Shown piece after piece: positions 19,001 through 58,433 of a DNA stretch of 64,000 nt. How positions within the stretch are numbered: position 1 is the stretch's first letter; the number at the start of each line of letters is the position of its first letter. The translations under genes were made by a program, and so were the position numbers. Location of the stretch: the NCBI GenBank assembly GCA_964017045.1, contig OZ024811.1, positions 11,313,818 through 11,377,817 on the forward strand. The letters are read 5' to 3'. A model generated the notes under the pieces. The model made no database searches, was not told the origin of the DNA, and saw only the letters and a program-made list of their open reading frames with translations. Origin of the DNA: Omphiscola glabra. Lineage: Eukaryota > Mollusca > Gastropoda > Lymnaeidae.

Positions 19001-22000
19001 ATAAGTGATGGCTAAGTGGTCTACTAATAGATGGTTGAAATAAGTGATGGCTAAGTGGTCTACTAATGGGCGGTTGTAATAAGTGATGGCTAAGTGGTCT
19101 AATAATAGGAGTAAGTAATAAGTGATGTCTAAGTGGTCTACTAATAGGCGATTGTAATAAGTGATGGCTAAATGGTCTACTAATAGGCGGTTGTAATAAG
19201 TGATGGCTAAGTGGTCTACTAATAGGCGGTTGTAATAAGTGATGGCTAAGTAGTCTACTAATAGGCGGTTGTAATAAATGATGGCTAAGTGGTCTACTAA
19301 TAGGCGGTTGTAATAAGTGATGGCTAAGTGGTCTAATAATGGGCGGTTGTAATAAGTGATGGCTAAATGGTCTACTAATAGGCGGTTGTAATAAGTGATA
19401 ACTAAGTGGTCTACTAATAGGCGGTTGTAATAAGTGATGGCTAAGTAGTCTACTAATAGGCGGTTGTAATAAATGATGGCTAAGTGGTCTACTAATAGGC
19501 GGTTGTAATAAGTGATGGCTAAGTGGTCTAATAATGGGCGGTTGTAATAAGTGATGGCTAAGTGGTCTAATAATGGGCGGTTGTAGTAAGTGATGGCTAA
19601 GTGGTCTACTAATAGGCGGTTGTAATAAGTGATGGCTAAGTGGTCTACTAATAGGCGGTTGTAATAAGTGATGGCTAAGTGGTCTAATAATAGGCGGTTG
19701 TAATAAGTGATGGCTAAGTGGTCTACTAATGGGCGGTTGTAATAAGTGATGGCTAAGTGGTCTAATAATAGGCGGTTGTAATAAGTGATGGCTAAGTGGT
19801 CTACTAATGGGCGGTTGTAATAAGTGATGGCTAAGTGGTCTAATAATAGGCGGTTGTAGTAAGTGTTGGCTAAGTGGTCTACAAATGGGCGGTTGTAATA
19901 AGTGATGGCTAAGTGGTCTACTAATGGGCGGTTGTAATAAGTGATGGCTAAGTGGTCTACGAATAGGCGGTTGTAATAAGTGATGGCTAAGTGGTCTACT
20001 AATAGGCGGTTGTAATAAGTGATGGCTAAGTGGTCTACTAATGGGCGGTTGTAATAAGTGATGGCTAAGTGGTCTACTAATGGGCGGTTGTAATAAGTGA
20101 TGGCTAAGTGGTCTACTAATAGGCGATTGTAATAAGTGATGGCTAAGTGGTCTAATAATAGGCGGTTGTAAAAGGTGATGGCTAAGTGGTCTAATAATGG
20201 GCGGTTGTAATAAGTGATGGCTAAGTGGTCTACTAATGGGCGGTTGTAATAAGTGATGGCTAAGTGGTCTACTAATGGGCGGTTGTAGTAAGTGATGGCT
20301 AAGTGGTCTACTAATGGGCGGTTGTAATAAGTGATGGCTAAGTGGTCTAGTAATGGGCGGTTGTAATAAGTGATGGCTAAGTGGTCTAATAAATGGAGTA
20401 AGTAATAAGTGATGGCTAAGTGGTCTACTAATGGGCGGTTGTAGTAAGTGAAGGCTAAGTGGTCTACTAATGGGCGGTTGTAGTAAGTGAAGGCTAAGTG
20501 GTCTAATAATAGGAGTAAGTAATAAGTGATGGCTAAGTGGTCTACTAATGGGCGGTTGTAATAAGTGATGGCTAAGTGGTCTACTAATAGGCGGTTGTAA
20601 TAAGTGATGGCTAAGTGGTCTACTAATGGGCGGTTGTAATAAGTGATGGCTAAGTGGTCTACTAATGGGCGGTTGTAATAAGTGATGGCTAAGTGGTCTA
20701 CTAATGGGCGGTTGTAATAAGTGATGGCTAAGGGGTCTACTAATAGGCGATTGTAATAAGTGATGGCTAAGTGGTCTAATAATAGGCGGTTGTAATAAGT
20801 GATGGCTAAGTGGTCTAATAATGGGCGGTTGTAATAAGTGATGGCTTAGTGGTCTAATAATAGGCGGTTGTAATAAGTGATGGCTAAGTGGTCTAATAAT
20901 AGGCGGTTGTAATAAGTGATGGCTATGTGGTCTACTAATGGGCGGTTGTAATAAGTGATGGCTAAGTGGTCTAATAATGGGCGGTTGTAGTAAGTGATGG
21001 CTAAGTGGTCTAATAATAGGCGGTTGTAATAAGTGATGGCTAAGTGGTCTATTAATAGGCGGTTGTAATAAGTGATGGCTAAGTGGTCTAATAATAGGAG
21101 TAAGTAATAAGTGATGGCTAAGTGGTCTACTAATGGGCGGTTGTAATAAGTGATGGCTAAGTGGTCTACTAATAGGTGGTTGAAATAAGTGATGGCTAAG
21201 TGGTCTACTAATGGGCGGTTGTAATAAGTGATGGCTAAGTGGTCTAATAATGGGCGGTTGTAGTAAGTGATGGCTAAGTGGTCTAATAATAGGCGGTTGT
21301 AATAAGTGATGGCTAAGTGGTCTAATAATGGGCGGTTGTAATAAGTGATGGCTAAGTGGTCTACTAATGGGCGGTTGTAATAAGTGATGGCTAAGGGTTC
21401 TAATAATAGGCGGTTGTAATAAGTGATGACTAAGTAGTCTACTAATCGGCGGTTGTAATAAGTGACTGCTAAGTGGTCTAATAATGGGCGGTTGTAATAA
21501 GTGATGGCTAAGTGGTCTACTAATGGGCGGTTGTAATAAGTGATGGCTAAGTGGTCTTATAATAGGCGGTTGTAATAAGTGATGGCTAAGTGGTCTATTA
21601 ATAGGCGGTTGTAATAAGTGATGGCTAAGTGGTCTAATAATAGGAGTAAGTAATAAGTGATGGCTAAGTGGTCTACTAATGGGCGGTTGTAATAAGTGAT
21701 GGCTAAGTGGTCTACTAATAGGTGGTTGAAATAAGTGATGGCTAAGTGGTCTACTAATGGGCGGTTGTAATAAGTGATGGCTAAGTGGTCTAATAATAGG
21801 AGTAAGTAATAAGTGATGTCTAAGTGGTCTACTAATAGGCGATTGTAATAAGTGATGGCTAAGTGTTCTAATAATAGGCGGTTGTAATAAGTGATGGCTA
21901 AGTGGTCTAATAATGGGCGGTTGTAATAAGTGATGGCTAAGTGGTCTACTTATAGGCGGTTGTAATAAGTGATGGCTAAGTGGTCTAATAATGGGCGATT

Positions 22001-22800
22001 GTAATAAGTGATGGCTAAGTGGTCTAATAATGGGCGGTTGTAATAAGTGATGGCTAAGTGGTCTAATAATGGGCGGTTGTAATAAGTGATGGCTAAGTGG
22101 TCTAATAATAAGCGATTGTAATAAGTGAAGGCTAAGTGGTCTAATAATGGGCGGTTGTAATAAGTGATGTCTAAGTGGTCTACTAATAGGCGGTTGTAAT
22201 AAGTGATGGCTAAGTGGTCTATTAATAGGCGGTTGTAATAAGTGATGGCTAAGTGGTCTAATAATAGGAGTAAGTAATAAGTGATGGCTAAGTGGTCTAC
22301 TAATGGGCGGTTGTAATAAGTGATGGCTAAGTGGTCTACTAATAGGTGGTTGAAATAAGTGATGGCTAAGTGGTCTACTAATGGGCGGTTGTAATAAGTG
22401 ATGGCTAAGTGGTCTAATAATAGGAGTAAGTAATAAGTGATGTCTAAGTGGTCTACTAATAGGCGATTGTAATAAGTGATGGCTAAGTGTTCTAATAATA
22501 GGCGGTTGTAATAAGTGATGGCTAAGTGGTCTAATAATGGGCGGTTGTAATAAGTGATGGCTAAGTGGTCTACTAATAGGCGGTTGTAATAAGTGATGGC
22601 TAAGTGGTCTAATAATGGGCGATTGTAATAAGTGATGGCTAAGTGGTCTAATAATGGGCGGTTGTAATAAGTGATGGCTAAGTGGTCTAATAATGGGCGG
22701 TTGTAATAAGTGATGGCTAAGTGGTCTAATAATAAGCGATTGTAATAAGTGAAGGCTAAGTGGTCTAATAATGGGCGGTTGTAATAAGTGATGTCTAAGT
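13090..22800. repeat. Higher-order repeat in the satellite, 88 units (3,432 bp)
   Basis: Rare unit variants recur at a fixed distance. TGAAGG variants lie at 13586, 17018 and 20450 (3,432 bp apart, twice). GACTAAGTAG variants lie at 14291/17723 and 14837/18269 (both 3,432). TTGAAATAAG variants lie at 14591/18023, 15137/18569 and 15605/19037 (all 3,432). AAAAGGTGATGG lies at 16737 and 20169 (3,432), with an earlier copy at 12798, 3,939 bp (101 units) before. 3,432 is exactly 88 x 39. The third block is shortened: 18023 to 21182 and 18569 to 21728 are both 3,159 bp (81 units). Smaller duplications of 14, 12 and 16 units are nested inside. Confidence 0.9.
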
Positions 22801-23204
22801 GGTCTACTAATAGGCGGTTGTAATAAGTGATGGCTAAGTGGACTACAAATGGGTGATTGTAATAAGTGATGGCTAAGTGGTCTACTAATAGGCGGTTGTA
22901 ATAAGTGATGGCTAAGTGGTCTACTAATAGGCGGTTGTAATAAGTGATGGCTAAGTGGTCTAATAATGGGCGTTTGTAATAAGTGATGGCTAAGTGGTCT
23001 AATAATGGGCGATTGTAATAAGTGATGGCTAAGTGGTCTACTAATAGGTGGTTGTAATAAGTGATGGCTAAGTGGTCTACTAATAGGCGGTTGTAATAAG
23101 TGATGCCTAAGTGGTCTAATAATAGGCGGTTGTAATAAGTGATGGCTAAGTGGTCTAATAATGGGCGGTTGTAATAAGTGATGGCTAAGTGGTCTACTAA
23201 TAGG

Positions 23205-23505
23205 CGTAAGTAATAAGTGAAGGCTAAGTAGTCTACTAATAGACTAGACGTATGTAATAAGTGAAGGCAAAGTAGTCTACTAATAGTCTAGACGCATGTA
23301 ATATGTGAAGGCTAAGTAGTCAACTAGTAGACCTATGTAATATGTTATGGCTAAGTAGTCTATTAATAGACTAGACGTATGTAATAAGCGAAGGCTAAGC
23401 AGGCTACTAATAGACTAGACGCATGTAATATGCGAAGGCTAAGTAGTCTACTAGTAGACCTATGTAATATGATATGGCTAAGTAGTCTACTAATAGACGT
23501 ATGAT
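23205..23505. repeat. Decayed right edge of the satellite (44/44/39 bp units)
   Basis: The last seven or so units differ from the rest. They contain AAGTAGTCTACTAATAGACTAGACG, lack the GGCGGTTG tail, and run as 44, 44, 39, 44, 44, 39 and 39 bp, so two 127 bp trimers can be seen. A 5 bp insertion (TAGAC duplicated as TAGACTAGAC) explains 44 versus 39. The array then stops in AT-rich DNA. Confidence 0.75.
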
Positions 23506-32292: not shown

Positions 32293-32383
32293 ATGGCTAG
32301 AGCATACACACATCTAAATGTATTGATAACGTGGTTGATATTGGCAAGTTTCTTTATCGAGCAGGTAGATGCAGATGTTGTAG
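32293..32383 (+). CDS. Carbonic anhydrase exon 1: signal peptide
   Basis: ATG at 32293, 30 codons plus one base (phase 1). It encodes a typical hydrophobic leader ending in VDA-DVV. Donor GTAAGC. A nearer GT at 32364 would end in phase 2 and break the join to exon 2, so it is not used here. Confidence 0.88.
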
Positions 32384-35300
32384 GTAAGCAGATGTTTGTT
32401 CATTTATATCCTGAGTCTGATTGTAATCAAGAGTTTGGGAGTTGCTAAAAAACATTTCCCTTCTTTCTAGGCAATGTATACTTAAGTGCACGTGACTGAC
32501 ACGCTTCCCTTTCAGGTGATGTGGTTTATTCAAAACACTTTTTCTTAAAAATCCGTTGCTGGAAAAAATCTTCGGATGGCTAATTGACCCACTTCCCGCC
32601 AAAAAATCGAAATGAATTTCGGAAAATAGACACGTTGCCGATGACAACATAATTTTTTTTTCTTCCAAATCTTCATTCCCAACTCACAAACATTCAGTTT
32701 TTGCTATTTTTCAAGGGGAAGATAAAAGAAAAATGATGGCAATGATTTGACGAAATAAAATTCCCGATAATTGCGCTACATGCGAATCTTTTTTATAAAA
32801 ATTTCGCAAGTAAGTTTTTTGAGTAATATTTTCTTTTGTTTTTTCTGAAAACGTTGGTGAAGTAAATCTGCGGTGTAAAAGCGGATAGGTCATTAGATTA
32901 TAAATATATTTCAGGTGCGAGGAAAAAAAACTGTAAAGTAAAAAAAACGTTGTATCCAATGTTAGTGCCCAATATTTGTACCTTTATTGTAAAAAATCCA
33001 ATGAATTTTTTCAATGTTACTATCCAAATGCTAGTATAGAAAGCGTCGATACAATTTTTTAAATGATCTTTATGATTCCGGTGTTGATATTTAATGCTTC
33101 TTGTCCAATGCTTCTATCCAATGTATATAGATTCAATGTTGGTATCCGATGTGGGTGTAAACTATTAGAATACAATGCTAGTATCCAATGTCAAGTATCT
33201 GAAACCTTTTCTTGTGTTGCAGGATGGAGTTATGACCCAAAGCGTGGAGGTAGGTCGCCATGTTTTTTTTTTTATTATTAGACATTTAAACTCTAGTATG
33301 TATAGATGGGCAACTTCTCATTTAAATAGAGTCGGAGTCATTACTCCTTCTATTAAAGGCGTGATCTCTGTTTAAGGGAGATGTTATCTTCTTCTACCTG
33401 AGCCATTTTTTTCTTTCTAATAGAAGCGTTATCTCTTTCTAATAGAAGCGTCATCTCTTTCTAATAGAAGCGTTATCTCTTTCTAATAGAAGCGTTATCT
33501 CTTTCTAATAGAAGCGTTATCTCTTTCTAATAGAAGCGTTATCTCTTTCTAATAGAAGTGTTATCTCTTTCTAATAGAAGTGTTATCTCTTTCTAATAGA
33601 AGTGTTATCTCTTTCTAATACAAGTGTTATCTCTTTCTAATAGAAGTGTTATCTCTTTCTAATAGAAGTGTTATCTCTTTCTAATAGAAGTGTTATCTCT
33701 TTCTAATAGAAGTGTTATCTCTTTCTAATACAAGTGTTATCTCTTTCTAATACAAGTGTTATCTCTTTCTAATAGAAGTGTTATCTCTTTCTAATAGAAG
33801 TGTTATCTCTTTCTAATAGAAGTGTTATCTCTTTTAATAGAAGTGTTATCTCTTTCTAATAGGGGCTTTCTGGAAAATCAGATAGGGAAGTTTTGAAAAA
33901 TCTAGGTCACTGAATTTTATATTTCCACTGCCAGGTGCCTTTTAAAGCTATTTCTTTAAGGACTCTGGCATTTATTATGATCATCGGGCCACACTGGTGA
34001 CACATTCATGTAAGACGGGGAGGGGGGGTGTGTGGCTGACGCAGAAATAAAGAATTAAGTATTTGAAATAACCAAGTCGTTTGCATCAGGGAAGACCAGG
34101 AAGTATATTTGAAAATGTATCGTTGTTAAATTGTAATATTTGTTTTTTTTATTTTTAAAAAATGTTATCAAATGTTTGTTATAGACCATCTCTTTAATTC
34201 TTAACTGCCTCTATTGCAGCGTAGCATTTCCATCTTGTTGGCCGTAATTTTTACAAAATAAATTATTTTATTTTTATTTATTTTTTAGCCGCGCGAAATT
34301 TTAAGTTTCTCTCGTGCAGTGTTCGCCTGGTGAGCATGCTGGAAAAGAATACTGGGTCGATGGTGGCGAGTTAACACCGTCGCTCAGATCCTGGTTGATC
34401 GCGTCGGCTTCGTTGAGGGAACTGGTGGGTGGGTGAGCTCAGATCTAATTGTTAGTTTTTTGACTAGGTTACAAAATTAGGTACTTTAACCTTGCTTTTG
34501 TAGGCATTCGTTCTTTTAAAAGAAAAGTAAATAAATATAATTTTGTCGATAATCTAAAGATTAAAGAAGAAAATGAGTAAAGCAAAGTATGTGAAAACCT
34601 GAAAAAAAAAGGAAAACAAGAAAACAACGAACGTGTTGGCAGGAAGCCTTCGTCAGCGAACACACAACAGAAAAAAAAAGAGTTAAATTTAAAATAGCAC
34701 TTGGCTTAAAAGTAGTATCTGAGGGCTGCTGATCTTTGACAGAAGGTCTTTACCGTTTTAATATGTATTACTTAATTTTTAAAAATGAAAATGTGTTACA
34801 TAAAATTCCATGTTTTCTCTTTATGTCATTTGCTTTTGAGGACTTTCTATACAGTCTTATAAACAAGTTCTTTTTTTTATTTTCTATTGCGTGTAGCTTG
34901 CTTTTGAAGGGTAATAATCCTTTTAAATTAAAAAAAAAATATTTGACTTCCAATGTTTTTACCGAAAAGCAAAGAGAAAAGTAGAATTTAAGAAATAAAT
35001 GTTAGACTTAATTTACACATAAAAGAAAAAAATTATAAAGAATTTTTTTTTTAAAAACACTACTTTTTATAATAACCGTATATTTCCTCGCATCTTAAAT
35101 TCTCTTTTCTGGCATCCAATTTTTGAAATATTTTTGGAAAACCCTAGACAAGAAATGATTGTGACCTGATCTGATTAAAATTGTGGTATATGCAGGTCTG
35201 GGTTGGACGGGTGGGTGGGGGGCGTGGAATCTGGAAGTTAGGACGACACCATGCGTTTACCGCACCGGGTGACGTCAACCCCGGTGATGCCTCCGTTAAA

Positions 35301-38300
35301 CACATCAATGTTATTGCACTTACGTCACAAGTAAAAATTTATAAGAACACACTGTATGTTATACTGATGTGTTATATGTCACACGTACATTTATAACAAC
35401 AGACTGTATGTTATGCTGGTTGCTCCGATGTGTTTGCCTACCATCTCTCAGGTCCTGACGTGTGGAAGAATTCCTACCCAGATTGTGCCGGGCTGCTGCA
35501 GTCACCCATCAACATTGTCACCAAGGATGCTGTGTACCATCACAAGTTGCAGTACATCAATATCAACAACTATTCCATGACGGATGGTGTGAAGATGAAT
35601 CTAGTGAACAAAGACGGACACACAGGTAAAGGCTAATGTCCCGCAGACACATATGTAAAAGCTAAAGTCACGCGGACACTCAGGTAAAAGCTAAAGTCAC
35701 GCAGACACACAGGTAAAAGCTAAAGTCACGCAGACACACAGATAAAAGCTAAAGTCACCGAGACACACATGTAAAAGTTAAAGTAGCGCGGACACACAGG
35801 TAAAAGCTAAAGTCACGCGGACCCGCAGGTAAAAGCTGAAGTCACGCGGACTCACAGGTAAAAGCTTAGGTCACACGGACACACAGATAAAATGCTAAGG
35901 TCACGCGGACACACAGGTAAAAGCTAAGGTCACGCGGACACACGGGTAAAGGCTAAGGTCACGCGGGTATAGATTGGCTAGTCACGCTTTAACTAGGATA
36001 ATAAACCGAAACTTAAAAACTAGGGCCATAGCGAAATGTCATATGACTTGGGTTATACATGTACACAACGGTTGATACAGTTTTGACCTCGGTCATTTCT
36101 GTTATATGTACTGTCACAGAAATATGCCTGATGCAGTGTATATATAATTTTAATTCTGTGCATATAGATAGTAACGTAAAACTGTTTGAGTTTATTCTAC
36201 AATCAATTTGATTCCTTTTGCTTCATTATATTGTCTTATACCCTTCTGTTCAGACTTACTTTGCGGAATGCATTTTAAGAAAATTGAAATCATTTTCTTC
36301 ATTTTAATAAAAATGTTTTAAATACTTTAAGTTATTGTATTCTTACAATTTGTGAAAGGATAAGCAAAACAAACCAAAAAAACTGTCCACTTTTCGGGTT
36401 ACCCAATGAGGCAATTGTGGTCTGATTCCGCCAATGAGTTAAGCACGACTCGTGTTGATCTCTCCAGCCGTCATGTGCGTGCGACCAAGAGTGCTTTTAC
36501 TGTGTACCGTTACGTAACATTGTCTGAAAATTATTTTCAGCCGAAACCCTCTATTAAACTCTCTATGAAACTGTCTATGAAACTCTCTATGAAACCCTCT
36601 ATGAAACTCTCGATGAAACTCTCGATGAAACTCTCGATGAAACTCTCTATGAAACTCTCTTTCAAACTCTCTATGAAACTCTCGATGAAACTCTCTATGA
36701 AACTCTCAAAGAAACTCTCTATGAAACACTCTATGAAACTCTAAAAGAAACTCTCTATGAAGCTCTCTATGAAACTCTCTATGAAACTTTCTATGAAACC
36801 CTCTACTTATGAATATCTGCCATTTAATCTCTATGCAATGACTACTGAAAAAAAATCTGGTAACCTTTCATGTTGTAGCGGAAGTCGTACTGTCGGGAAA
36901 ACCGATTTACATTCAAGAAGGCAGCTTGCCGGATGTTTACAAACTGGAGCAGTTTCACTTTCATTGGGGGGCTGAGGATAACAGAGGCTCAGAACATAGC
37001 ATCGATGGGGAGTTTTATCCCATGGAGGTAGGTGCACTAGAAGGTGATAGGAGAGATTGGAACATAGCATCGATGGGGAGTTTTATCCCATGGAGGTAGG
37101 TGCACTAGAAGGTGATAAGAGAGATGGGAACATAGCATCAATGGGGAGTTTTACCCATGGAGGTAGGTGCACTAGAAGGTGATAGGAGAGATGGGAACAT
37201 AGCATCGATGGGGAGTTCTATCCCATGGAGGTAGGTGCCTAGAAGGTGATAGGAGAGATGGGAACATAGCATCAATGGGGAGTTCTATTGCATAGAAGTA
37301 GTTGCATAAGGGCTGATGAAGATTTAAGAATATGTAATTTTTTGGGGTATGCTTTCCCTTATTTTGTTGTTTATTGTTCGTTCTTCGCATCCGTGCAAAG
37401 ATGGTCAAGTCTTATTCAGTGGTGAGTTCGCATGCATATTGTGGTTCCTATTTGTGCTTGAAAAGTTCACCCGCTTCTAAGGCACACGTGTTTTGTTGGC
37501 GAGACGGTAGGTGTTGAAAGCCTTGTGATCAATGTGGTTATTTCCCGCATCTTCACTTCTACGATATCATTTAGGGGATTAGACCAAAAAAAATTGCCAA
37601 AAACAGGTCACTAATAACAGTTATTGTGGTCGGCTTGCATTCTCCTAAAAATTGAAAATAAATTCGTCTGTCCTGGATCTAAGTGCGATGCCGTCATCAA
37701 TGTCCAATAGCAAACAGCATGATTGAGAATGCTATGGTAGAACGTACTGAACCAGGGGAACCGTGAGCCAGGTAGCCGAGTGGTAAAAGTGATTTAATCC
37801 AAGGCTTTTGGAGTTCAATGACCAGAATACGACCACACAAACAAAATCACCACAACAATCCCGGATGGTTGGGACTCGTTAACCTAGGATGGAGATCACT
37901 TTAAGGGCAGGAGACTCTGAATTCAAAACCAGAGATGGTATCCCGCTGGCGGTATGACATTGGTGCAATGAAAACTCCGGCACGTCCTGGGACGTGGAAC
38001 GGATACACGTCCCTGGTGGACAAAGTAGAAATCTTGTCATCTTCGCATGCGAAGGGCACACAATAGTGGGATGCAAAACTTCACCATAATCTTCCATAAG
38101 CTTCCTACAAAGGAAAAAAAATGTTGAAACGATTTGCTGTGTCGCCCTTGACATAGTTTGCTGAAGGTGTTGAGCAGCCAATCTTATGTTAGCACTGCCC
38201 TATTCTAAACGGTGTGCACATTGGCTGTTATGAAGAGTCCATCTTTTGAGTTATTGGAGCATAGCAATGGTTGTGTGAGGAGGTAGAAGATGTAAATACG

Positions 38301-41300
38301 CTGAGAACATCGTAGTATTTGTGGGATGACCTTTGACATTGAGATGTATTTGAAAGCGGTATAAATATAGAGTTTGTGAACTTTGATTGAAAAAAACAAA
38401 AACAAAATCCTTTTTTTAAAAGCTGAAATTCATGTCTGAATCATTTTTTTCGTGTCATTTTCAGTTGCACCTGGTTCACTACCAACATCATCTTGACAAC
38501 TTCACAGCCGCCTCAAATCATCCATTCGGCCTTGCAGTCTTTGCATTTCTCTTTAAGGTACCCCCATAACGTACTCATGGATTCATTGGTTATGCCATTG
38601 TTGGCCAACTTAATATTGCAAAGAATAAAATGAGTTTCGTGCTGAAAATCACTGTTCTTAACTTTAGCTTAAATAAATATTCCGTGTTGTTGTAGGTTAC
38701 AAACTGTATCGTTTTTACGGCAACTATTATTAAAAGTTATGATTGCACATCCTACACCCAAAACAAAATCGCATTTGCTGGCCCAACAATTTGGAACACC
38801 TTCCTGTCGCTCTCAGAAACAGACAGACACTGGAGTCCTTCAAAACCGATTTGAAAACACATCTATGTCGCAAACACCTGCTGGGGTGATGTTGTCTACC
38901 ATCTTTTCCAGCTAGCTATTATCTTCTAGGTGTATATTGGCTTGTGTTTATGGTTGCAAGGGATAAAGAATTTGTTAGTTTTTGTAATGCTGCGTTTTGT
39001 ATTTAAATTGGGTAAAACATCGATTGTTTCATTTCTCTTTTAATATGGTTGACTTTGTACCGCGCTTCGAGCCTTCGGGGATGAAACGTGATTTTTCAAA
39101 TGAACTTTATTATTATTATTATTAGGTTGCACCATAAATATACAACACATTCACAAACATGTATTTCAGTTGGTACAACACGTTCACATCACATATACAC
39201 ACTTGTATTTCAGGTTGTACAACACGTTCACATCACATATGCATGCTTGTATTTCAGGTTGTACCACAAGATAACATCAAATTAAACAGCATTCTGAAGC
39301 ATTTTCCTAAGATTGTTAACCCAAGTAAGTAGACCAGCACGCTAATCAACAATGACTAATGAGTGTACAGCTTCAGTATGGGTCGGCATGTAGTCTGGTG
39401 TATATTGTCTGACTACTCCCAAACAGTATGCCAGTATGACATCCCAAAGTTACAGTGTGTTCTTTAGCTGTGTGTTTCGTTTGTTAAGCCCACTATTTTA
39501 AGATAATTCAATTACAGACATAGAGGTTGAAATCGAGACGTTTATGGTGAGGGACATTCTACCTGATTTGGAAAATCTGGACTTTTACCGCTATGACGGC
39601 AGCCTGACATCGCCACCATGTTTTGAAAGTGTCATTTGGTCGGTGGCCGTGGAGAACATTGAAATCTCGGAGAACCAGGTGATTGATTCTGCATTAAAAA
39701 AAATTATTATGAACATTACATGACTATGATTTACAGTCACGCTATCCAAACATTTAGCCCAAAATATTTTCAACTTTTATCCAAACAGTTATCCCAATAT
39801 TTATCCGAACATTACCCAAAACTTTTCCCCATATTTTATTTCAATATGTATACAAACATTTATCCCAAATTTATCTCAGCTTTGACCTAAAGATTTATCC
39901 CAACTTCTTTGTTATCCCTTCTTTTACCCAAACATTTCTCCCACTGTTTATCGCAAAACGCAATCCCTTAGTCTATCCTAACCTCTATCTCAAATTGTAT
40001 AGAATCCCACCAAATTCCACGAGAGCATCTATTAAACCACATATTCCAGTATTAAGGTTACCATTCAAAAACAAATTTCATCTCAAAGACTATCCCAAAT
40101 ATCTATGCCAAAAAATGCATCAAGAAATACTTCATCCTTTTAAGACACTAAATTTGTTTCCTCTGGGATTTTATCTTCTGAATTTACATAATATTTGGAT
40201 ACTATGCAAAGTCTTGTCTGATATCTTTAAATTTCAACATTTGAAAATGCATATTTCGCATTGAAAAATTAAACAACTGTGTCATAAGCTTCCAAAGAAT
40301 GCACCCGCATTTTTGGCAGTCTCCAGTAAACTAGTAGAAAGCAAAGAAGGCGCAAAAGTTTCAAAATCTTATTTCTTCTGGGCACAGAGCTTCACGAAAC
40401 GTCGGAAAAAAAGATATCACTGGAATTAAATTCGCAAACTACAAACATCATTTCGTTTGAATAATTTTCGCAGGCTGTCAGTACGTTTTACGAAACCAGA
40501 ATTTGCTCATCAATGAAAGTGAATACATAGTAAAAAAAAAAAAATTTATGATTTAAAAAATAAAAATCAAGAAAACTACGAGACTAATCAAAAGATGATT
40601 GTAACTTTCCGTTATCAGATAACAGTAGCTATTAATATTTAAGAGCTGAAAAGAAAACCCATTAAGCAGTGTGCGTTCTCGTGATTTCATCAGTTTATAA
40701 ACATTGTTTTTTTGTTTCAACTCTGAATTGATAATCTTTAACAAAGAAGATCTGCTACACAAAACATCCATGGCATTGCTGTCTTTTGAACGGCAATGAC
40801 CATATCTCACATGACAATACATTTTATCAATAAAATAATAGATATACATATACATAGTTCGTTAAATTACCTCACACTGATTGCTCTAGAAATGACATTT
40901 CGCCAAGAAAGAAAGATAACTTTTATGATGCAACAAATAACCTCAAGCAAAGTGAACATATTTAAAAATCCTTCGCCGGCCCCTCTTTAGAGTCATTGTG
41001 CTATGGCTGTCTGTTCATTGCGCTGCGCCCGGGATTCATGTCTTGTGGTTTTAAACTGGTATATTGGCGCTGTCTGTTCATTGCGCTGCGCCCGGGATTC
41101 ATGTCTTGTGGTTTTAAACTGGTATATTGGCGCTGTCTGTTCATTGCGCTGCGCCCGGGATTCATGTCTTGTGGTTTTAAACTGGTATATTGGCGCTGTC
41201 TGTTCATTGCGCTGCGCCCGGGATTCATGTCTTGTGGTTTTAAACTGGTATATTGGCGCTGTCTGTTCATTGCGCTGCGCCCGGGATTCATGTCTTGTGG

Positions 41301-41996
41301 TTTTAAACTGGTATATTGGCGCTGTCTGTTCATTGCGTCACACTAGGTAGTCATGTCTTGTGGGTATAAGTTGGTGCGCTGGGGCGGTCTGTTCAATAAC
41401 TTATGTTAGCTACTAGTGCCTATACAATAACTTTTCTGATACCTGACATCAGCATAAAGATATATTTTTTTTTTTAAATGGAGATCAAAAATGTTTCCCT
41501 GATTGACTTCACCTTAGCCAATTTGTACGCCCCCAAACCCATACCCATACCCAACGCCCCTTGGGTCAAGGTACCTCCCACTTTGAGAACAATGCTCAAT
41601 CAAAAACATTTTGCCAATCTCTATCGCATTTTAAAAAAACTATACATGTTCTTTGGCCCAAGCTCTATACATATATATCCCTACGTCTACCCAAAACTCT
41701 AACCCTAACTTTCGCCAATGCTGTATTCAAATATATAACCTAAATCTTCGACAAGCTACATTCAAACTTCTATTTCACATTCTCTTTGTCCTCAGCTCAG
41801 TCAGTTCAGGAACCTCAGTGACGACAATCACGCGCATCTTGTTGATGACTTCCGGCCAATCCAACCGGAGCACAGTCGTCTGATTACCACAACACTGCGG
41901 GTATCTAATAATAATGTTGGTTCAAAGGTCACCGCATGCCTCCTTGTGTTATCTCCCAGCCTACTTTCAGTTTTGTATTATAGCCTATTGTATTAA
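32293..41996 (+). CDS. Alpha carbonic anhydrase, secreted and GPI-anchored (8 exons)
   Basis: Reversible hydration of CO2 to bicarbonate and a proton at the outer cell surface. Exons: 32293-32383, 33223-33249, 35452-35625, 36879-37027, 38465-38557, 39258-39324, 39518-39678, 41796-41996. They total 963 nt (320 aa) with GT-AG ends and matching phases throughout. Seen: signal peptide (1-~27, FFIEQVDA); QSPINI (56-61); proton-shuttle His96 in DGHTAEV; zinc ligands His124 and His126 in QFHFHWG, and His149 in LHLVHY; gate residues Glu136 (GSEH) and Thr231 (GSLTSPPC); FRPIQP near the C-terminus; Cys51 and Cys235 placed as the disulfide of extracellular members; a hydrophobic tail (~297-320) after NNNVGSK, as in GPI-anchored CA IV/XV types. 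All catalytic residues are present, so activity is expected. A role in acid-base balance or shell formation is inference. Introns 1-5 and 7 carry tandem repeats. Confidence 0.95.
32950..33212. repeat. Degenerate ATCCAATGCTAGT repeat in intron 1
   Basis: Scattered, mutated copies of a short unit containing TATCCAATG(C/T)TAGTA within intron 1, ending just before the exon 2 acceptor. An old, decayed minisatellite. Confidence 0.55.
33223..33249 (+). CDS. Carbonic anhydrase exon 2: 27 nt microexon
   Basis: Acceptor TTGTGTTGCAG, donor GTAGGT. It encodes GWSYDPKRG, matching the W-Y segment that opens mature alpha carbonic anhydrases. Phase 1 in and out. Assigned because it restores the frame and the expected protein start. 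Confidence 0.85.
33408..33863. repeat. 22 bp minisatellite in intron 2, ~20 copies
   Basis: Tandem copies of a 22 bp unit containing TTATCTCTTTCTAATAGAAG. Early copies read GAAGCG, later ones GAAGTG or CAAGTG; one copy lacks a base (CTTTTAATAG near 33831). Confidence 0.95.
33864..35451. other. Rest of intron 2, no further gene
   Basis: Mostly AT-rich. A moderately GC-rich patch at about 34290-34440 (CCGCGCGAAATT to GGTGAGCTCAG) is unlike the rest but matches nothing I recognise. The short open frames here lack any family resemblance. Confidence 0.35.
35452..35625 (+). CDS. Carbonic anhydrase exon 3: QSPINI and His shuttle
   Basis: Begins after CTCTCAG and ends in ACACAG|GTAAAG, phase 1. It encodes PDVWKNSYPDCAG, QSPINI and the DGH that carries the predicted proton-shuttle histidine. 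Its last ~10 bases plus the donor are the founder of the 29 bp repeat that follows. Confidence 0.93.
35612..35968. repeat. 29 bp minisatellite spanning the exon 3 donor, ~12 copies
   Basis: The unit holds CACGCGGACACACAGGTAAAAGC. The first copy is the end of exon 3 with its own splice donor (GGACACACAG|GTAAAGGC). At least ten further CAGGTAAAAGC-like donors follow downstream in the intron, some mutated to ATGTAAAAGC or AGATAAAAGC. Confidence 0.93.
36546..36806. repeat. 12 bp minisatellite AAACTCTCTATG in intron 3
   Basis: About 21 copies of AAACTCTCTATG with variants (CTCGATG, CCCTCTATG, CTCAAAG). It generates open frames with a KLSM repeat that are not genes. It ends about 70 bp before the exon 4 acceptor. 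Confidence 0.93.
36879..37027 (+). CDS. Carbonic anhydrase exon 4: HFHWG zinc ligands
   Basis: Acceptor TGTTGTAG, donor GAG|GTAGGT, phase 1 in and 0 out. It encodes QFHFHWG (two zinc histidines) and GSEHSIDGEFYPME (gate glutamate). Its last 36 bases lie inside the 68 bp repeat unit that continues into intron 4. Confidence 0.95.
36992..37320. repeat. 68 bp tandem repeat spanning the exon 4 donor, ~4.9 copies
   Basis: Copy 1 starts at 36992 inside exon 4 and contains 12 codons (EHSIDGEFYPME), the donor GTAGGT and 26 bp of intron. Copies 2-4 follow from 37060 with few changes, each keeping the coding-like stretch and ATGGAGGTAGGT donor. Copy 3 has lost one base (TTTTACCCATGG). Copy 5 is partial and its donor is mutated (ATAGAAGTAGTT). 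Confidence 0.95.
37762..38135 (+). mobile_element. tRNA-derived SINE-like element in intron 4
   Basis: TAGCCGAGTGG at 37772 is a perfect pol III A box of the Leu/Ser tRNA class, followed by a weak B box (GAGTTCAATGACC, ~37811). The body from about 37862 (GTTGGGACTCGTTAACCTAGG, TCTGAATTCAAAACC, GAGATGGTATCCCG) is shared with the minus-strand element at 62450-62765. No intact tRNA fold is expected. A repeat family present at least twice here. Confidence 0.65.
38465..38557 (+). CDS. Carbonic anhydrase exon 5: third zinc histidine
   Basis: Acceptor TTTTCAG, donor AAG|GTACCC, phase 0 both ends, 31 codons. It begins LHLVHYQHH, whose first His is the third zinc ligand, and ends in GLAVFAFLFK, a core strand of the fold. 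Confidence 0.95.
38750..39122 (+). mobile_element. 3' end of a CR1/L2-like non-LTR retrotransposon in intron 5
   Basis: With one or two frame changes the plus strand reads AFAGPTIWNT and then TLESFKTDLKTHL, the conserved C-terminus of CR1/L2-type ORF2 proteins. A short 3' UTR follows (CGCGCTTCGAGCC, GATGAAACG), ending in (ATT)n at ~39106-39123, the usual tail of such elements. 5'-truncated and dead. Confidence 0.65.
39124..39292. repeat. 44 bp tandem repeat spanning the exon 6 acceptor, ~3.5 copies
   Basis: GTATTTCAG occurs at 39161, 39205 and 39249, exactly 44 bp apart. The last one is the exon 6 acceptor, and the start of exon 6 (GTTGTACCACAAGATAACATC) aligns with the repeat interior (GTTGTACAACACGTTCACATC). 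A partial earlier copy begins at ~39124. Confidence 0.88.
39258..39324 (+). CDS. Carbonic anhydrase exon 6
   Basis: Acceptor ATTTCAG, donor CCAA|GTAAGT, phase 0 in and 1 out, 22 codons (VVPQDNIKLNSILKHFPKI). It is the helix between the LF(L/K) strand and the C-terminal core. Of three AG acceptors in the repeat, only this one keeps the expected protein sequence. Confidence 0.9.
39518..39678 (+). CDS. Carbonic anhydrase exon 7: GSLTSPPC active-site loop
   Basis: Acceptor ATTACAG, donor CAG|GTGATT, phase 1 in and 0 out. It encodes FYRYDGSLTSPPC, with the gate threonine and the second disulfide cysteine, then the ESVIWSVAVENIEIS strand. Confidence 0.95.
39690..40000. repeat. Degenerate ATTTATCCCAAAC repeat in intron 7
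   Basis: Irregular copies of (C)CAAACATTTATCCCAA, about 14 bp apart, strongly diverged. An old minisatellite at the start of intron 7. Confidence 0.55.
40000..40990. other. Middle of intron 7, nothing recognised
   Basis: AT-rich, no gene, no clear transposon. A poly-A run lies at ~40534. Short open frames here show no family resemblance. Confidence 0.35.
41005..41340. repeat. 63 bp minisatellite in intron 7, 5.3 near-identical copies
   Basis: CTGTCTGTTCATTGCGCTGC recurs every 63 bp from 41007. Five full copies appear identical, each with one CCCGGG site, and a broken sixth begins at ~41322 and diverges at CACTAGG. Identity suggests very recent expansion. Several long open frames on both strands come from the 21-codon period. 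Confidence 0.95.
41341..41795. other. End of intron 7
   Basis: 41520-41770 is another weak, mutated short repeat (CCAAACCCATACCCATACCC and similar CCA-A-ACT words), then a pyrimidine-rich tract (TTCTCTTTGTCCTCAG) that is the exon 8 acceptor. Confidence 0.45.
41796..41996 (+). CDS. Carbonic anhydrase exon 8: C-terminus and GPI signal
   Basis: 66 codons and TAA. It encodes LSQFRNL, DDFRPIQP (conserved C-terminal strand), then SNNNVGSK followed by about 20 hydrophobic residues to the stop, the pattern of a GPI-attachment signal. The exact anchor residue is not resolved. Confidence 0.93.
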   Translation, partial: LSQFRNLSDDNHAHLVDDFRPIQPEHSRLITTTLRVSNNNVGSKVTACLLVLSPSLLSVLYYSLLY

Positions 41997-44907: not shown

Positions 44908-45881
44908 TTAAGTTAAGAAATGACCACACACTAACTTTTTGAAAGTGGCAGCAAACTTTGAACTTAACGTGACGTAAATGACAAAGTTTAGTGACGCGTA
45001 CATGTAATCAAACATCCTCACAACCATTCGGCCGGTTACAATGAAAAAATCATTGTCAGGATAATCATTCATGAAAAAAAGGCCTTTTTGCACATGACAG
45101 GTTTTGGAGAAAAAGTCAACAAAGCCAAACAGGAGATGACCGTTAATAATTTGAACGCCTTCAACTCTTTTCTCACTTTCGAGAGACGACAACGGGGATC
45201 ATGGGAGAATTTTCGGGACATGAGATAGATCTTGACGCCAATCGTTGTGTTGCACGCCAATATCACTAGCAGCGGCATCAAACTAATAAATATTGTAAAT
45301 ACTAGGTTAAAAGTGTTTCTTCCATTGAAGAATAAAACCAGCGGTATCTTGTTAAATAAAAGATATGCGGGAACTATAAAAAGGTATATATATATAGGAA
45401 CAGCAGCTAAAATAAATGTAGCCCTAGTCGTTGTAAAAAGTCTGGAAATAAGAAAGGGGAATAAGACGGCTACCATCCTCTCTACGGAAAGTATAGCCAC
45501 AAGAGTATAGCTGGCAAAACAGTCATTCAAGAACATCTGTAACACGAACGAAATTACACCGGAAGTGCGGAAGAATATCCTAAAAAAATGGATCAGCATC
45601 TCCAAAAAGTCGAACACTAGATGGATGCAATCGCATACAGTAATGGATATCAAGAGGATATTTGTTGTATCTTTAATTCCGTGGCGAGTTAAAACAAAAA
45701 TGGTTATGACGTTGCCCACAATACCACATAGGCCAACACATGAACGTAGAAAGGTGGTCAAAAATGTGTACAGTAAAAAGCATTCGACACTTTTGTGAAT
45801 GTCGAATGGAACTTGATAAAAAGCTGATTGATTCCAGTTATGAGAGTCCTTGAATTCCTTTACGGAATTAATTGTGTTCAT
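44908..45881 (-). pseudogene. Rhodopsin-class receptor with one frameshift
   Basis: A class A GPCR of the type expanded as peptide or chemosensory receptors in gastropods. The first ATG giving a plausible N-terminus is at 45879-45881 (MNTINSV, with an NQS glycosylation site). Seen: TM1 with GNVITIF, TM2 with DCIHLVFD, TM3 ending SVERMVAVLFP (ERM for E/DRY), TM4, TM5 (LMPLLVILACNTTIG), and TM6 after KELKAFKLL. The frame then stops at TGA near 45069, just after a run of seven A on the plus strand (45074-45080). The protein continues one frame away through MNDYPDN and TM7 (SLNFVIYVTLSSKF, an NPxxY variant) to a stop at 44908. One missing or extra base in the homopolymer explains this, so it may be a young pseudogene or an assembly error. 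An upstream exon is possible (CAG at ~45926). Confidence 0.8.
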
Positions 45882-45920
45882 AAAACGAATGCTCTTTATT
45901 GATCTGATTGCCTTATCCAA

Positions 45921-46169
45921 CGATTCTGTAAGTATTATATCACATCAAAATGTTGCACTTCTTTTTATATGTATCCCATAATTCTCCTGTTTTTTTATAC
46001 CCGTATAGTCCTGAAATGAGCCAATCTAATGTGGCGATAGATTTAGTGCTGGTTATCTTCAAAGGTTGAAGTGCTGAGATATCAAATGTAAAACTATCAA
46101 TAATAGCTTCGTCTCCTTGGGAAAAAAACTGGTTACGTGTGATGCAATCGCTTCCTAGAAATCTGCTGG
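45921..46169. other. Spacer upstream of the frameshifted receptor
   Basis: Short stretch between the receptor and the U2-like element. Nothing recognised beyond a possible upstream splice acceptor for the receptor near 45926. Confidence 0.3.
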
Positions 46170-51383: not shown

Positions 51384-53392
51384 CTAGCAAAGTCTACTAA
51401 GAAAGTCTGCCTCCACATTATTGGCTCCTACAATGGACTGCCAACAAAAACTGTAACTCTGTAAAAACATAGCCCATCTCATTATCCTGGCGCTCACGAA
51501 TCGGGCCGTTCCAATGTATTGTAATGGCTGATGGTCAGTTTGTAGAATGAACTTTTTTTTTCGTAAAGATATAGTTCAAATTTCTTGATAGCTCATACTA
51601 TCGCCAAGCACTCTTTTTCGATAGTTGAATACCTGGTCTCCCTTTGCAATAGCTTCTTACTGGCGAAGGCAACGGGATGAAGTACCCCGTCATCACCTTC
51701 TTGAAGCAGGGCAGCTCCCAGTCCCACATCCGATGCATCAGCCCTCAAAACAAATGATTTACCCATATCGGGGATGTGTAAAATTGGACGTGTGGTGATT
51801 GCACCCTTCAAGGCTTCATATGCTTTTTCCTGGTCTCCTCCCCATTTTAATTTGTTTGGTTGACCTTTCTTAGTTAGAGCCGTCAATGGGGATGCAAGGG
51901 TCGCATAGTTTGGTACAAAGTCCCTGTAATACCCCGTGAGACCAAGGAAGGAACGGACCTCCCTTTTCGTAGTTGGTCGAGGGGCATGCTTGATCTTGTC
52001 AACGTTATCTTCCTGTAGCCCTATCGTTCCCAGTGATAATCTGTGTCCCACGAAGTCCACCTCGACCGCACCAAATACGCATTTGGTGGGCCTCCCAGTC
52101 AGTTTGGACACTCTCAATCGATTAAATAATTCCGACAGTGTCTCTAAATGTTCCTTCCAAGTGCTGGTGTAGATAAGCAAATCATCTACGTAACTAATCA
52201 CATTTTTCATTCCTTCTAACAGTTGTCGAGTTGCCCGAATCAGCGTAGCTCCTGAATTCATCATTCCAAACGGCATTCTCAAAAATTCATAATGGCCATC
52301 CGGAGTCACGAATGCCGTTTTTGGGATATCCTTAGGTTCAACGGGAATCTGCCAATACCCTTTCCTAAGATCAATTTTGCTGAAATATTTAGCCTCTGGA
52401 GTGGTATAAAATATTTCGTTCGGTGACGTCACTGGCACTGGATCAAAAACAGTAATCTTGTTTAGGCCTCGATAGTCAACACAGACTCGATTTGATCCAT
52501 CCTTCTTCTTCACAATAACCACGGGTGATGCATAAGGTGATGTGCTCTTGCGGATAACACCTAGAGTCTCCATTTCAAGCATCTCGGCCTGGAGGGCATC
52601 ACGAACTGCGTAAGGAATTGAGTATGGCCTTGATCGGACGGGGGCATCTGATGTCAGTTTGATATAATGTACACTCAAATTGGTGGCCCCTGGGCGGTCA
52701 GTAAAGATCATATGATATTCTGTTACCAATTTAGTGATTTGTTGACGCTGTTCGGTCGTTAACTGCTCACAAAACTGTACATCTTGGTGTGACTCCTTTT
52801 GTGACCACACACCAAGTTCTGATAGAAGCTCGGTGCTTGCACTTTCGTCATCCTCTTCATAATCCTCTAGCACCCCGACACCAGCTACAATCAATGTCTC
52901 TGATTTCTCTTCACTTTTATCGCTATCAATGTTCTTAAAAACTTCATCTTTCCTGTGATCTGTGCCATGAGACACGTATTCCTTGAGGAGGTTTGCATGA
53001 AATGTCTTCTTCTTCCCTTTCATGTCAACACAATAGTCACAGGGTCCTACGACTTCGGTAATTAGATATGGTCCCTTCCAGTGCATCAACAACTTGTTTA
53101 CCTTAGTTGGAAGTAATATCAAAACCTTGTCACCCACCACGAACTTTCTATCTCTCGTTCCTCTATCATAGTAATGTTTGTATCTTCCTTGGGCTTTGCT
53201 TAGCTCCTCCTGAGCCAACGTTAGTGTGTCATCTATCTTTTCTCGTAGATCAACTACGTACTGGTAGTTGTTTCTCACCTCTTCATCTTGAATGTCTTGG
53301 GTCCACAACTGTCGCAACACATGCATAGGGCCTCTGATGCTACGCCCGTAAAGCATCTCCAAAGGAGAAAATCCAGTTGACTCTTGTGGCAC
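51384..53392 (-). pseudogene. pol: Integrase C-terminus, reverse transcriptase and RNase H
   Basis: Copies element RNA into DNA. The frame 53392-51593 (599 codons) starts in the integrase (STGFSPLEMLYGR), passes a GPY/F-type module (HWKGPYLITEVVGPCDY, ~104-120) and a 130-residue acidic linker, then the reverse transcriptase (~250-450): SPYASPVVIVKKKDG, the first catalytic Asp in KIDLRKGYW (341), and YVDD (401-404). It continues into RNase H with Asp in LRADASD (~552) and Glu in EKECLA (~593). A TGA at 51590-51592, where tryptophan is usual, stops it. The same frame then stays open about 68 codons to TAG at 51384, passing TDHQPLQYIG and ADFLSRL, so RNase H is otherwise complete and ends the element. 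Confidence 0.92.
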
Positions 53393-54342
53393 CTCCCTAT
53401 ACGCGAACAGCGCTGCGTTTATAAAACGATGTCACTGCCTTAGCTGTTTGTGACACAATCGTTTTAGCATGGTTTTTAATGTCCCATTGAATCTCTCGAC
53501 CAATCAATTACACATGGGGTGGTAGGGTGTGGTGGTAAGTGGTTTGATACCCAGCATCCTGCTCACCTCTTTCATACACTCCGATGTGAACTGGGAACCT
53601 TGATCACTTAAAACTTCTTCAGGGATTCCCAAACGACTGTACACGTCAACTAGTGCCTCAGCCACGGTCTCTTTGTCGATTCTTTTTAACGGTACCACCT
53701 CCGGATACCTATTAGCATAGTCAACAAGTGTCAAAATATAACGATAACCGGCTTCACTCTCCGGCACAATAGGTCCTATCAGATCGATGGCCACTTGAAT
53801 GGAACATCAACCACAGGGAATCTTTGCATTGGAACTTTTGATACTTATCATTTCTTGGTAGTTTTCTGGCAAATATCACATGATCTTCAGTATTCCTTTA
53901 CGTCATTGCTCATTCCTTGCCAATAGAAATTGCTCAGGATCATCTCCTTTGTCCTGCCAACTCTGAGATGACCACCCACCATACTGTCATGGGCAACTGA
54001 CATGACTTGCCGTCTGAGAGACTCTGGTAATACAACTTGTCTGATTGTCCTTCCTCTTTTCTTGTCCTTAAAAACTCTATAAACTATGCCATCTTTAAAA
54101 TCAAAGATTGAATTGTTCTTTTGTTCCGAATCTTTCTCTTGTGGCAATGAGCGAATAACAGGGTCGCCTTGTTGCAGCTGTATGAGAGTCTCGCGACTCA
54201 CCCCCGGGTGCTTTTCAACCACAGGTATTTTTAAGTGAGATATATCTTCAGCCCTTTTATCTTGCGCTCTGGTAGTCACCATGGGCACCGTCATTGTCTT
54301 GTCTGGGTCATCAGCGCCCCTCGTGCCATCCACATTCCCCAC
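53393..54342 (-). pseudogene. pol: Integrase zinc-binding and catalytic core, broken
   Basis: Joins element DNA to the host chromosome. 54342-53887 carries the N-terminal H2C2 finger (VAHDSMVGGHLRVGRTK, then CDICQ beyond a TGA at ~53887). 53794-53504 carries the core with Asp in AIDLIGP, Asp in VLSDQGSQFTSE and the PYHP motif. Breaks: TGA after VKEY, two adjacent stops near 53830, a frameshift near 53795, TGA at 53505 just before LVERFNGTLK, and another TGA near 53440. No active protein can be made. Confidence 0.88.
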
Positions 54343-54683
54343 TATAAGTCCACTATAGATTTTGAAACACAGAGCACCTCTACTCTTCCACTAAGGTATG
54401 GTGTTGCTATGTCAATGATAGCCATTTCTGCTTTTACAATGTCTGTGTTCATTAGCTCAATGAATCCTACTCCACCTGTTAGCTGGTCATCCCTTACATA
54501 CTTTCGCTTAACAATTATTGCTTCACATCCAGTGTCTCTTAACACCTCAACTTTAGTAGACCCGACAAAGCCTTCCAAAATCGACAATCTCCTCTTTCTT
54601 TTCATTTCATTGTGCTGCTTACAAATCTCTCCGCAACATTTGATATCTATCTTTGTGGCAATCTCTTTATTTTCTTTTGGCAA
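54342..54683 (-). pseudogene. pol: Aspartic protease of the retrotransposon
   Basis: Cuts the element polyprotein. The active-site triad DTG is seen in VLRDTGCEAIIVKR (complement of about 54510-54550), followed by DDQLTGG and a TPYLSGRVEVLC strand, typical of Gmr1-like elements. A TAG after SIVDL separates it from GNVDGTRGADD, which belongs to the same domain end and leads into integrase. Protease therefore precedes integrase directly. Confidence 0.85.
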
Positions 54684-54754
54684 TCTGTTTTTATTTTGTC
54701 GCTGTTTCCCGAAAGTTGCTTTCCAGGATAAAATATTGCTGATGCAGCCATTTT

Positions 54755-55480
54755 TTAATCATTTTTACCCGATTCACATACATTAGGACAGTTTCTCGCT
54801 ATATGTCCACTCTTATTACACACAAAACACTTAAAGTCAGATTTCACCTGTCCCCTAATGCCACTATAATCTCTCATTGGACCAGGCCATGTCTTCTGCT
54901 CTTCCTCTTCTCTATTGTTTGTGCCGTTTCTCCGATTCTCCAACTGGATCACGTGAGGCTGATCATTGAAGCGTCTCCTCCTTGCATCAAGAAATAGCTC
55001 TGATACTCTTACTACTTCATCAAGACTATTAATCCCTCTCTCTTTTAAGTGAGTAGCCAAATCAACGGGACACACACTCATGAATTGCTCCTTGATGAAC
55101 ATTTCCATAATACATTTCACAGTACTCTCTGTTTTCGATAGACTAATCCATTTCTTGAGGTAATTCTTCAATCTTCCAATGAATACGGCCGGACACTCAT
55201 CTGCCTGTGGCCTACTTTCTCTGAATAGGATCCTGTATCCATCTTCTGTAAGGTTGTACCTCTTTAACAGCACCTCTTTCACCTTTTCATAATCTAGTGC
55301 ATCTTCATAGGACATTCTTGAATACTCTTCTAAAGCACGCCCAGACAGAAGCGCACTAAGCGACAACGCCCAGTCGCTTACCGGCCAATTGCTGGTCTTA
55401 GCAAATAACTCGAATCTGGTGAGCCATCCATCAAATGAAATGTCTCATTAGGAAATGGCGCCGATGGGCAGTCGAGCTTA
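54755..55480 (-). pseudogene. gag: Gag with SCAN-like capsid and zinc knuckle
   Basis: Structural protein of the particle. The capsid part reads LSALLSGRALEEYSRMS, ALDYEKVKEVLLKRY, then a FRESRPQADECPAVFIGRLKNYL-like stretch and a helix with KERGINSLDEVVRVSELFLDAR. This is the pattern of Gmr1-like gags from which the SCAN domain is thought to derive. A CCHC knuckle follows (CFVCNKSGHIARNC, ~54795-54836). The frame is open upstream of 55366 through DGWLTRFELFAKTSNWPV up to a TGA near 55452; the N-terminal part (IRSFKLDCPSAPFPNE) continues in another frame, so one frameshift lies near 55440-55455. Confidence 0.8.
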
Positions 55481-57452: not shown

Positions 57453-58433
57453 TTACAAGAAAAAAAATGGTCTTTTTTTAATGAAGCTTTTCACCTTTGA
57501 ACTCATGACTAAAAATATAAAAGCATTTATTGAGTAAAAAAATTTGTTGGCAACTATACTCATACAATACAAAACAGAGTTAGTTGGCGTATTAAAATCA
57601 ACTTTAACGTTATATGTTGTTAACAGGGTAAAAGAAACGATTGGGATAAAACTGATCAACCTTAGCGCAAAAACACAAGAAAGTAACTTGACATGCTTCA
57701 GTTGTCTGACATTACTTTGAGTGACACAAGCAGACGATGGTGTTTCTTCTGTACGAGAAAGCAAATAAATGTTTACAATGATAGAAGATATGAGTATTAT
57801 GAGTAAAGGTATGTAGAGAATAACATGGTTGTCAATTTCATTCAAGTATGTAGCGACATTTATATGGCGAATCATAAAAATAGAGTTTACACACATAATT
57901 CTGCGGTTAATCCTTACAAATGCATTCTTTAAATACACGCGAGTGAATGTGAAGACAAAAGTGATGGTCACCAGCACGGGAATGGACCACTTCATGCGGT
58001 ATGGCGTAAACAATCTTGATGCCAGCCCCGGGGAAGACAGCATCACAAGTCTCTCTAGTGCAATCAGGGCAAGTGTACAGAGGCTAAAGTAGAAGGCGCG
58101 TTGATTCCACCTGAAAATACAAAACCTGTAAAATGCGGCCAAGATGTTTGTAATGTCAGGGTCCAAGCCTTCCAGGAGGTGTATGCTGTTAGATATGACT
58201 TCTGCAGTCGTAAGAACTGTGTCCGATACTGCCATGGCGTACAGGAGTATATTTGTCGAGGGGTTGAATTTGTGATGTTTGAGAACCTTGAGCACCGTGA
58301 CGCTTCCAGCCACTCCATAGACACATAAAATGGGAGGAACAATTTCTGTTATGATAAATATGAAGCTTTTCAAACTGGAATATTCCGATGCTGTATAGAC
58401 ATGGTAGAATGGATGTGTTGAATTAGGAGACAT
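57453..58433 (-). CDS. Rhodopsin-class G-protein-coupled receptor, single exon
   Basis: 326 aa, intact, from ATG at 58431-58433. An integral plasma-membrane receptor with unknown ligand. Seen: short N-terminus with NST glycosylation site (4-6); TM1 (~24-51); TM2 (~60-82, LLYAMAVSDTVL); TM3 (~105-129) ending in ALERL in place of E/DRY; TM4 (~149-167); Cys181 in the second outer loop, paired presumably with Cys105; TM5 (~203-225); TM6 (~246-273, without the usual CWxP); TM7 (~285-312) with NAFIF in place of NPxxY. Intronless, divergent class A receptors like this form large chemosensory-type families in gastropods. Similar in plan to the frameshifted receptor at 45 kb, but not a close copy. It sits between the arms of the large inverted repeat. 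Confidence 0.87.
   Translation of the reverse strand: MSPNSTHPFYHVYTASEYSSLKSFIFIITEIVPPILCVYGVAGSVTVLKVLKHHKFNPSTNILLYAMAVSDTVLTTAEVISNSIHLLEGLDPDITNILAAFYRFCIFRWNQRAFYFSLCTLALIALERLVMLSSPGLASRLFTPYRMKWSIPVLVTITFVFTFTRVYLKNAFVRINRRIMCVNSIFMIRHINVATYLNEIDNHVILYIPLLIILISSIIVNIYLLSRTEETPSSACVTQSNVRQLKHVKLLSCVFALRLISFIPIVSFTLLTTYNVKVDFNTPTNSVLYCMSIVANKFFYSINAFIFLVMSSKVKSFIKKRPFFFL

Follow-up and report, generated by a model that had tools for sequence, protein, structure and literature searches.

Tandem repeat arrays across three splice junctions of a carbonic anhydrase gene in the snail Omphiscola glabra

Here we describe an alpha-carbonic anhydrase gene of the gastropod Omphiscola glabra (Lymnaeidae) in which three tandem repeat arrays each span a splice junction, touching 3 of its 14 junctions: the exon 3 donor, the exon 4 donor and the exon 6 acceptor. 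The gene lies on the plus strand, at 32293-41996 of a 64,000-nucleotide stretch (assembly GCA_964017045.1, contig OZ024811.1, positions 11,313,818 to 11,377,817) that we call the window and to which all coordinates refer. We favour, with a probability of about 0.75, the explanation that minisatellites are born at random in the introns of this gene and are tolerated at exon edges since exon definition picks the exon-proximal site.

The splice model comprises eight coding exons and a protein of 320 amino acids; all seven predicted introns are GT-AG, and the joined frame is closed over its full 320 residues. The exons of the model are as follows.

32293-32383, plus strand, exon 1
33223-33249, plus strand, exon 2
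35452-35625, plus strand, exon 3
36879-37027, plus strand, exon 4
38465-38557, plus strand, exon 5
39258-39324, plus strand, exon 6
39518-39678, plus strand, exon 7
41796-41996, plus strand, exon 8, including the stop codon

The predicted protein matches PF00194 (E 3.8e-78, residues 40-286) and can be aligned with the solved CA2 and CA7. Its closest relatives are proteins of Lymnaea stagnalis—two full-length matches with 84% and 79% identity and another with 84% over 64% of the length—followed by those of other pulmonate snails. Residues H124, H126 and H149, which we take to be the three zinc-binding histidines of alpha-carbonic anhydrases, are invariant in 17 aligned sequences.

Arrays were called with Tandem Repeats Finder (TRF; score of at least 50, overlapping rows merged), which places seven in the gene, four of them wholly intronic. 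The three that span a junction are given below.

35615-35966, plus strand, exon 3 donor array: TRF period 29, 12.1 copies, score 490
36992-37306, plus strand, exon 4 donor array: TRF period 67, 4.7 copies, score 539; five units of 67 or 68 bp
39142-39279, plus strand, exon 6 acceptor array: TRF period 44, 3.1 copies, score 178

The used junction always lies inside the outermost unit, and each array reaches less than one unit into the exon (11, 36 and 22 bp for exons 3, 4 and 6). The exon 3 donor (35625/35626, the slash marking the splice site) sits with 11 exonic bases in the first of 12 units; among the 11 extra units, six carry CAG/GTAAAA, one CGG/GTAAAG and two AT/GTAAAA, and two are without GT. 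At exon 4, the donor (37027/37028) lies in the first unit together with the last 36 exonic bases, and intact GAG/GTAGGT donors recur after 37095, 37162 and 37230; the fourth extra unit (after 37297) has decayed to GAA/GTAGTT. The exon 6 array is arranged the other way round, with the acceptor (39257/39258) and 22 exonic bases in its last unit, extra acceptors TATTTCAG at 39169/39170 and 39213/39214, and a more diverged unit starting at about 39126. An independent scan, in which copies of the 24-mers centred on the 14 junctions were sought within 150 nt on either side, found copies matching at 20 or more of 24 positions at the same three junctions and at most 14 of 24 at the other 11. TRF and the exon model thus agree with a preliminary description of this DNA, which had placed the three junctions within the first or last unit of 29-, 68- and 44-bp arrays and had seen the exon 4 donor, with 36 coding bases, repeated intact at least three more times.

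Within each of the three arrays, the units are set apart by substitutions at scattered positions and by small indels. Units 2 to 4 of the exon 4 array match the exon unit at 66/68, 65/69 and 65/68 columns and the far unit 5 at 44/69, a drift that is the usual minisatellite picture. The intronic copies encode the gene's own version of a peptide, GEFYPME (exactly so in unit 2), rather than GKFSPME, the form in three L. stagnalis proteins; this fits a local origin as judged from the residues. Dating the arrays by these residues was tried and abandoned; other gastropods vary at the same positions, so no date can be derived.

The four arrays that span no junction are listed here.

33412-33862, plus strand, 22-bp array inside intron 2
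36543-36805, plus strand, 12-bp array inside intron 3
39743-39875, plus strand, 35-bp array inside intron 7
41006-41337, plus strand, 63-bp array inside intron 7

Together the seven arrays cover 1984 of the gene's 9704 bases (20%). Outside the gene and an 18-kb satellite described below, arrays cover 2358 of 36251 bases of the window (6.5%), and given this lower coverage the gene may be unusually repeat-rich. Nearby copies at 20/24 or better were found for 3 of 14 junctions (21%); the corresponding share is 19% in introns (1657 of 8580 positions) and 2% in exon interiors (19 of 777). A one-sided test of the junctions against the 19% gives P 0.53. The intron share stays at 18-24% over the thresholds tried, with 2 of 14 junctions at 21/24. 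Per base, the junctions resemble introns and not exons, and the striking point is the absence of depletion. When the seven whole arrays were placed at random, at least three junction hits occurred in 26% of trials. The preliminary description had held that three such arrays in one gene are hard to put down to chance, a view that these two comparisons do not bear out.

The outcome is different under a restricted null, in which exon overlap must be one-sided and less than one unit: the expectation falls to 0.32-0.38 arrays, with P 0.0022-0.0043 depending on the TRF cut, and a null that places only a seed unit gives P 0.0017. The restricted-null P values rest on one gene, picked by eye after looking. 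Extrapolated from this single gene, a P of 0.0043 would predict about 86 comparable genes in a set of 20,000 with the same architecture. As tandem repeats, the arrays are plainly beyond chance; an excess at junctions is not shown.

Which copy serves as the splice site can be inferred, indirectly, from homologous proteins and from work on human splicing. All 16 aligned homologues—four of them from L. stagnalis, one of those partial—are free of insertions at the three junctions (HT/AEV, PME/LHL and FK/VV); two are one residue short a few places past the third. For human 5' sites of near-equal strength with introns longer than 250 nt on both sides, the upstream site is favoured, and human-cell minigenes carrying a pair of identical strong 5' sites under exon definition use the upstream one exclusively (PMC9225289). 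The introns flanking exons 3 and 4 measure 2202, 1253 and 1437 nt and those flanking exon 6 measure 700 and 193 nt, which places exons 3 and 4 in the LL architecture class and exon 6 in the LS class; the latter behaves as exon-defined for 3' sites (PMC9225289). Set against the exon-definition rule, the fit of these intron lengths is good for the two donors and moderate for the acceptor. By analogy, the exon-proximal copy is most likely the one spliced in the O. glabra gene. The earlier proposal that such arrays are tolerated because the outermost, exon-proximal site wins is thus supported by the insertion-free homologues and the minigene results.

The extra sites vary in strength, as scored with a donor 9-mer weight matrix and a U1 sequence. 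Three extra exon 4 donors carry the authentic 9-mer GAGGTAGGT and equal the authentic site, with a score of 9.84 and a U1 duplex energy of -11.5. The authentic exon 3 donor scores 7.67, six of its extra copies 6.49 and one 6.12; the two copies preceded by AT reach at most 2.19, and the remaining two are the units without GT. In the extra exon 3 units, 7 of 99 donor-core positions (nine positions in 11 units) are changed, against 24 of 264 elsewhere, the latter including gap and terminal columns. Selection on these extra donors is therefore not apparent in the comparison of core and elsewhere; they are neither purged nor preserved. In the exon 6 array, TTCAC, which fits the yUnAy motif, is found at position -28 relative to the authentic acceptor, again at -28 for the closer of the two extra acceptors, and at -17 for the more distant extra acceptor. 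We considered these as branch-point modules and rejected them as evidence: three of the six other authentic acceptors of the gene lack a yUnAy motif within 60 nt, so the motif at exon 6 proves little.

Every one of the 16 alternative sites tested leads to a premature stop and a truncated protein; between these stops and the last junction lie 200-800 nt. All ten at exon 3 stop after residue 100, the four at exon 4 give 209 or 170 amino acids, and the two acceptors at exon 6 give 201 or 212. The preliminary description had reasoned that retaining one or two exon 4 units would shift the frame; this holds for one unit of 68 nt and fails for the third donor, where the 135 nt retained (68 + 67) are in frame, yet a stop is reached.

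Taken together, these results suggest the following sequence of events. Minisatellites would arise within the long introns of the carbonic anhydrase gene, and three arrays would have grown from a seed unit that by chance straddled a splice junction. Expansion into the intron would spare the exon and the used site, and with both left intact it would be nearly neutral. If the exons are recognised by exon definition, so that among sites of equal strength those closest across the exon pair, the exon-proximal copy would be chosen for that reason; occasional use of an intronic copy would produce a premature stop and probably nonsense-mediated decay. Several points weigh against this explanation. In the human data, when no strength filter is applied, about 60% of events favour the downstream 5' site, and the upstream preference shows only at near-equal strength; when identical sites are weakened, larger minigene exons are skipped; and 3' sites are generally upstream-preferred, a preference only weakened under LL architecture (PMC9225289). 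The rule is moreover a human one, and carrying it over to a snail is an assumption. Lastly, with P 0.002-0.004 under the restricted nulls, junctions may truly carry more arrays than expected.

Such an excess would be the basis of another explanation, in which exon edges seed or anchor arrays: a splice-site copy held by selection would cause arrays at boundaries to arise more frequently, or to persist longer, than free intronic ones. We think this improbable, and keep it as a rival because the outcome depends on the null chosen. Nulls of tolerated placement expect only 0.30-0.38 arrays and give P 0.0017-0.0043 for three, and the exon 4 units nearest the exon copy have stayed close to it while unit 5 has drifted; however, such drift of edge units is ordinary for minisatellites, junctions are per base no richer in repeats than introns, and whole-array placement yields three or more hits in about a quarter of trials. 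The case is also a single gene selected post hoc, and the earlier claim that exon edges seed duplications is not supported. Of the two explanations first offered for the arrays, tolerance is better supported than seeding. In its anchoring form—the selection-held unit acting as a master copy, with boundary arrays outlasting free intronic ones—the idea is an outside chance. If it were true, lineages whose long introns are rich in minisatellites (lancelets, lymnaeid snails) should have far more boundary arrays than tolerated random placement predicts, and these arrays should be confined to exon-defined junctions.

Two further alternatives concern the extra copies themselves. Rows of sites could be functional, regulated use of some intronic copies introducing premature stops and so reducing gene output; this would suit the three extra exon 4 donors, which equal the authentic site in 9-mer score and U1 duplex energy, and the stops reached from 16 of 16 alternative sites. 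We consider it very unlikely: the extra exon 3 donors are unpreserved (7/99 vs 24/264), almost any intron retention is expected to yield premature stops, and comparable arrays in amphioxus are reported to leave regular splicing undisturbed (PMC3087553). An origin of the extra copies in faulty assembly is more doubtful still. Assemblers readily get the copy number of repeats wrong, and one of the amphioxus arrays appeared aberrantly assembled in the draft genome (PMC3087553); however, substitutions and small indels separate the units in all three O. glabra arrays, and differences so scattered are not the product of plain mis-joining. The exact copy number of the arrays rests on one assembly and should be read as provisional.

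Minisatellites that span exon-intron boundaries have been named "mirages" in amphioxus, where they were described in Adh3 and the globin genes BflGb6 and BflGb9 (PMC3087553) and in TnC and PGBD5 (PMC3902484), with units of 10-72 bp in Adh3 and 150-160 bp in the globins (PMC3087553, PMC3902484). Length instability between haplotypes is a further trait of the mirages. The three O. glabra arrays have a unit lying across an exon-intron boundary, and many but not all copies keep their splice signals—exon 3 GT in 9 of 11 extra units (seven of them after AG or GG), exon 4 GAG/GTAGGT in 3 of 4 and exon 6 TTTCAG in 2 of 2. By this anatomical definition, and as read from the assembled sequence, they are mirage-type structures. 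Their units of 29, 44 and 67/68 bp fall within the Adh3 range and are shorter than those of the globin mirages; unlike the amphioxus cases, they occur in a gastropod gene and at three boundaries of one gene. The human CBS gene offers a further parallel in a 31-bp variable number tandem repeat (c.1444_1467+7; 16 to 21 units, length-polymorphic; PMC2630376), whose unit likewise lies over a donor, with 24 exonic and 7 intronic bases going by its coordinates; it spans one junction, unlike the three of the O. glabra gene.

Other reported systems differ in what the duplication does to gene structure. Internal tandem repeats in human segmental duplications are minisatellites with a mean unit of 30 bp, some at exon-intron boundaries, and are tied to changes in gene structure and putative new introns (PMC2812944), whereas the O. 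glabra model is without a new intron. In intron gain by tandem genomic duplication of AGGT segments, an exonic segment is doubled and a new intron arises (PMC3443670). Splice signals are multiplied by tandem duplication there as here; however, the O. glabra arrays multiply existing boundaries on the intron side. Each array occupies a single end of its intron (introns 3 and 4 for the donor arrays, intron 5 for the acceptor array), and no intron of the eight-exon model is flanked by two copies of one repeat unit. With no new intron in the model, the arrays fall outside intron gain by tandem duplication (PMC3443670). Among molluscs, a paper on Conus introns concerns, in its accessible part, simple repeats within introns and not boundary arrays (PMC3862624); no mollusc boundary-array case appeared among the matches listed in open-access literature searches, some of them directed at molluscs or snails, most subscription papers lying outside this coverage, and the matches listed in a further search gave nothing on lymnaeids. 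As far as these searches go, the kind of structure is familiar and the animal group is new: boundary-spanning repeats, printed mainly for lancelets and one human gene, are extended to a gastropod, and thrice in one gene. The exon 4 array is in addition a natural construct, with an identical nine-base donor at steps of 67-68 nt, and lends itself to work on how one of several equal sites is chosen, free of sequence differences. Gene prediction and assembly, too, can be led astray by boundary arrays.

Elsewhere in the window, an 18-kb satellite occupies 5452-23496, with a 39-bp unit in about 462 copies, 92% matches and a strong skew of G over C on the plus strand. A 1220-codon open frame on the minus strand (843-4502) combines C-type lectin, low-density lipoprotein-receptor class A and leucine-rich repeats with a rhodopsin-type seven-transmembrane domain, and presumably resembles the GRL101-type receptors of snails. 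Two more open frames on the minus strand, at 45072-45944 and 57456-58448, give 7tm_1 matches that are weak, though above the cutoff. Retroelement remains with interrupted frames lie on the minus strand at 51387-55444, in the order gag (SCAN, CCHC), integrase zinc finger, integrase core, reverse transcriptase and RNase H; integrase before reverse transcriptase is an order known from Gmr1-like Ty3/gypsy elements. A second 39-bp array at 62721-63151 holds 11 copies with 97% matches and has a long open frame on both strands.
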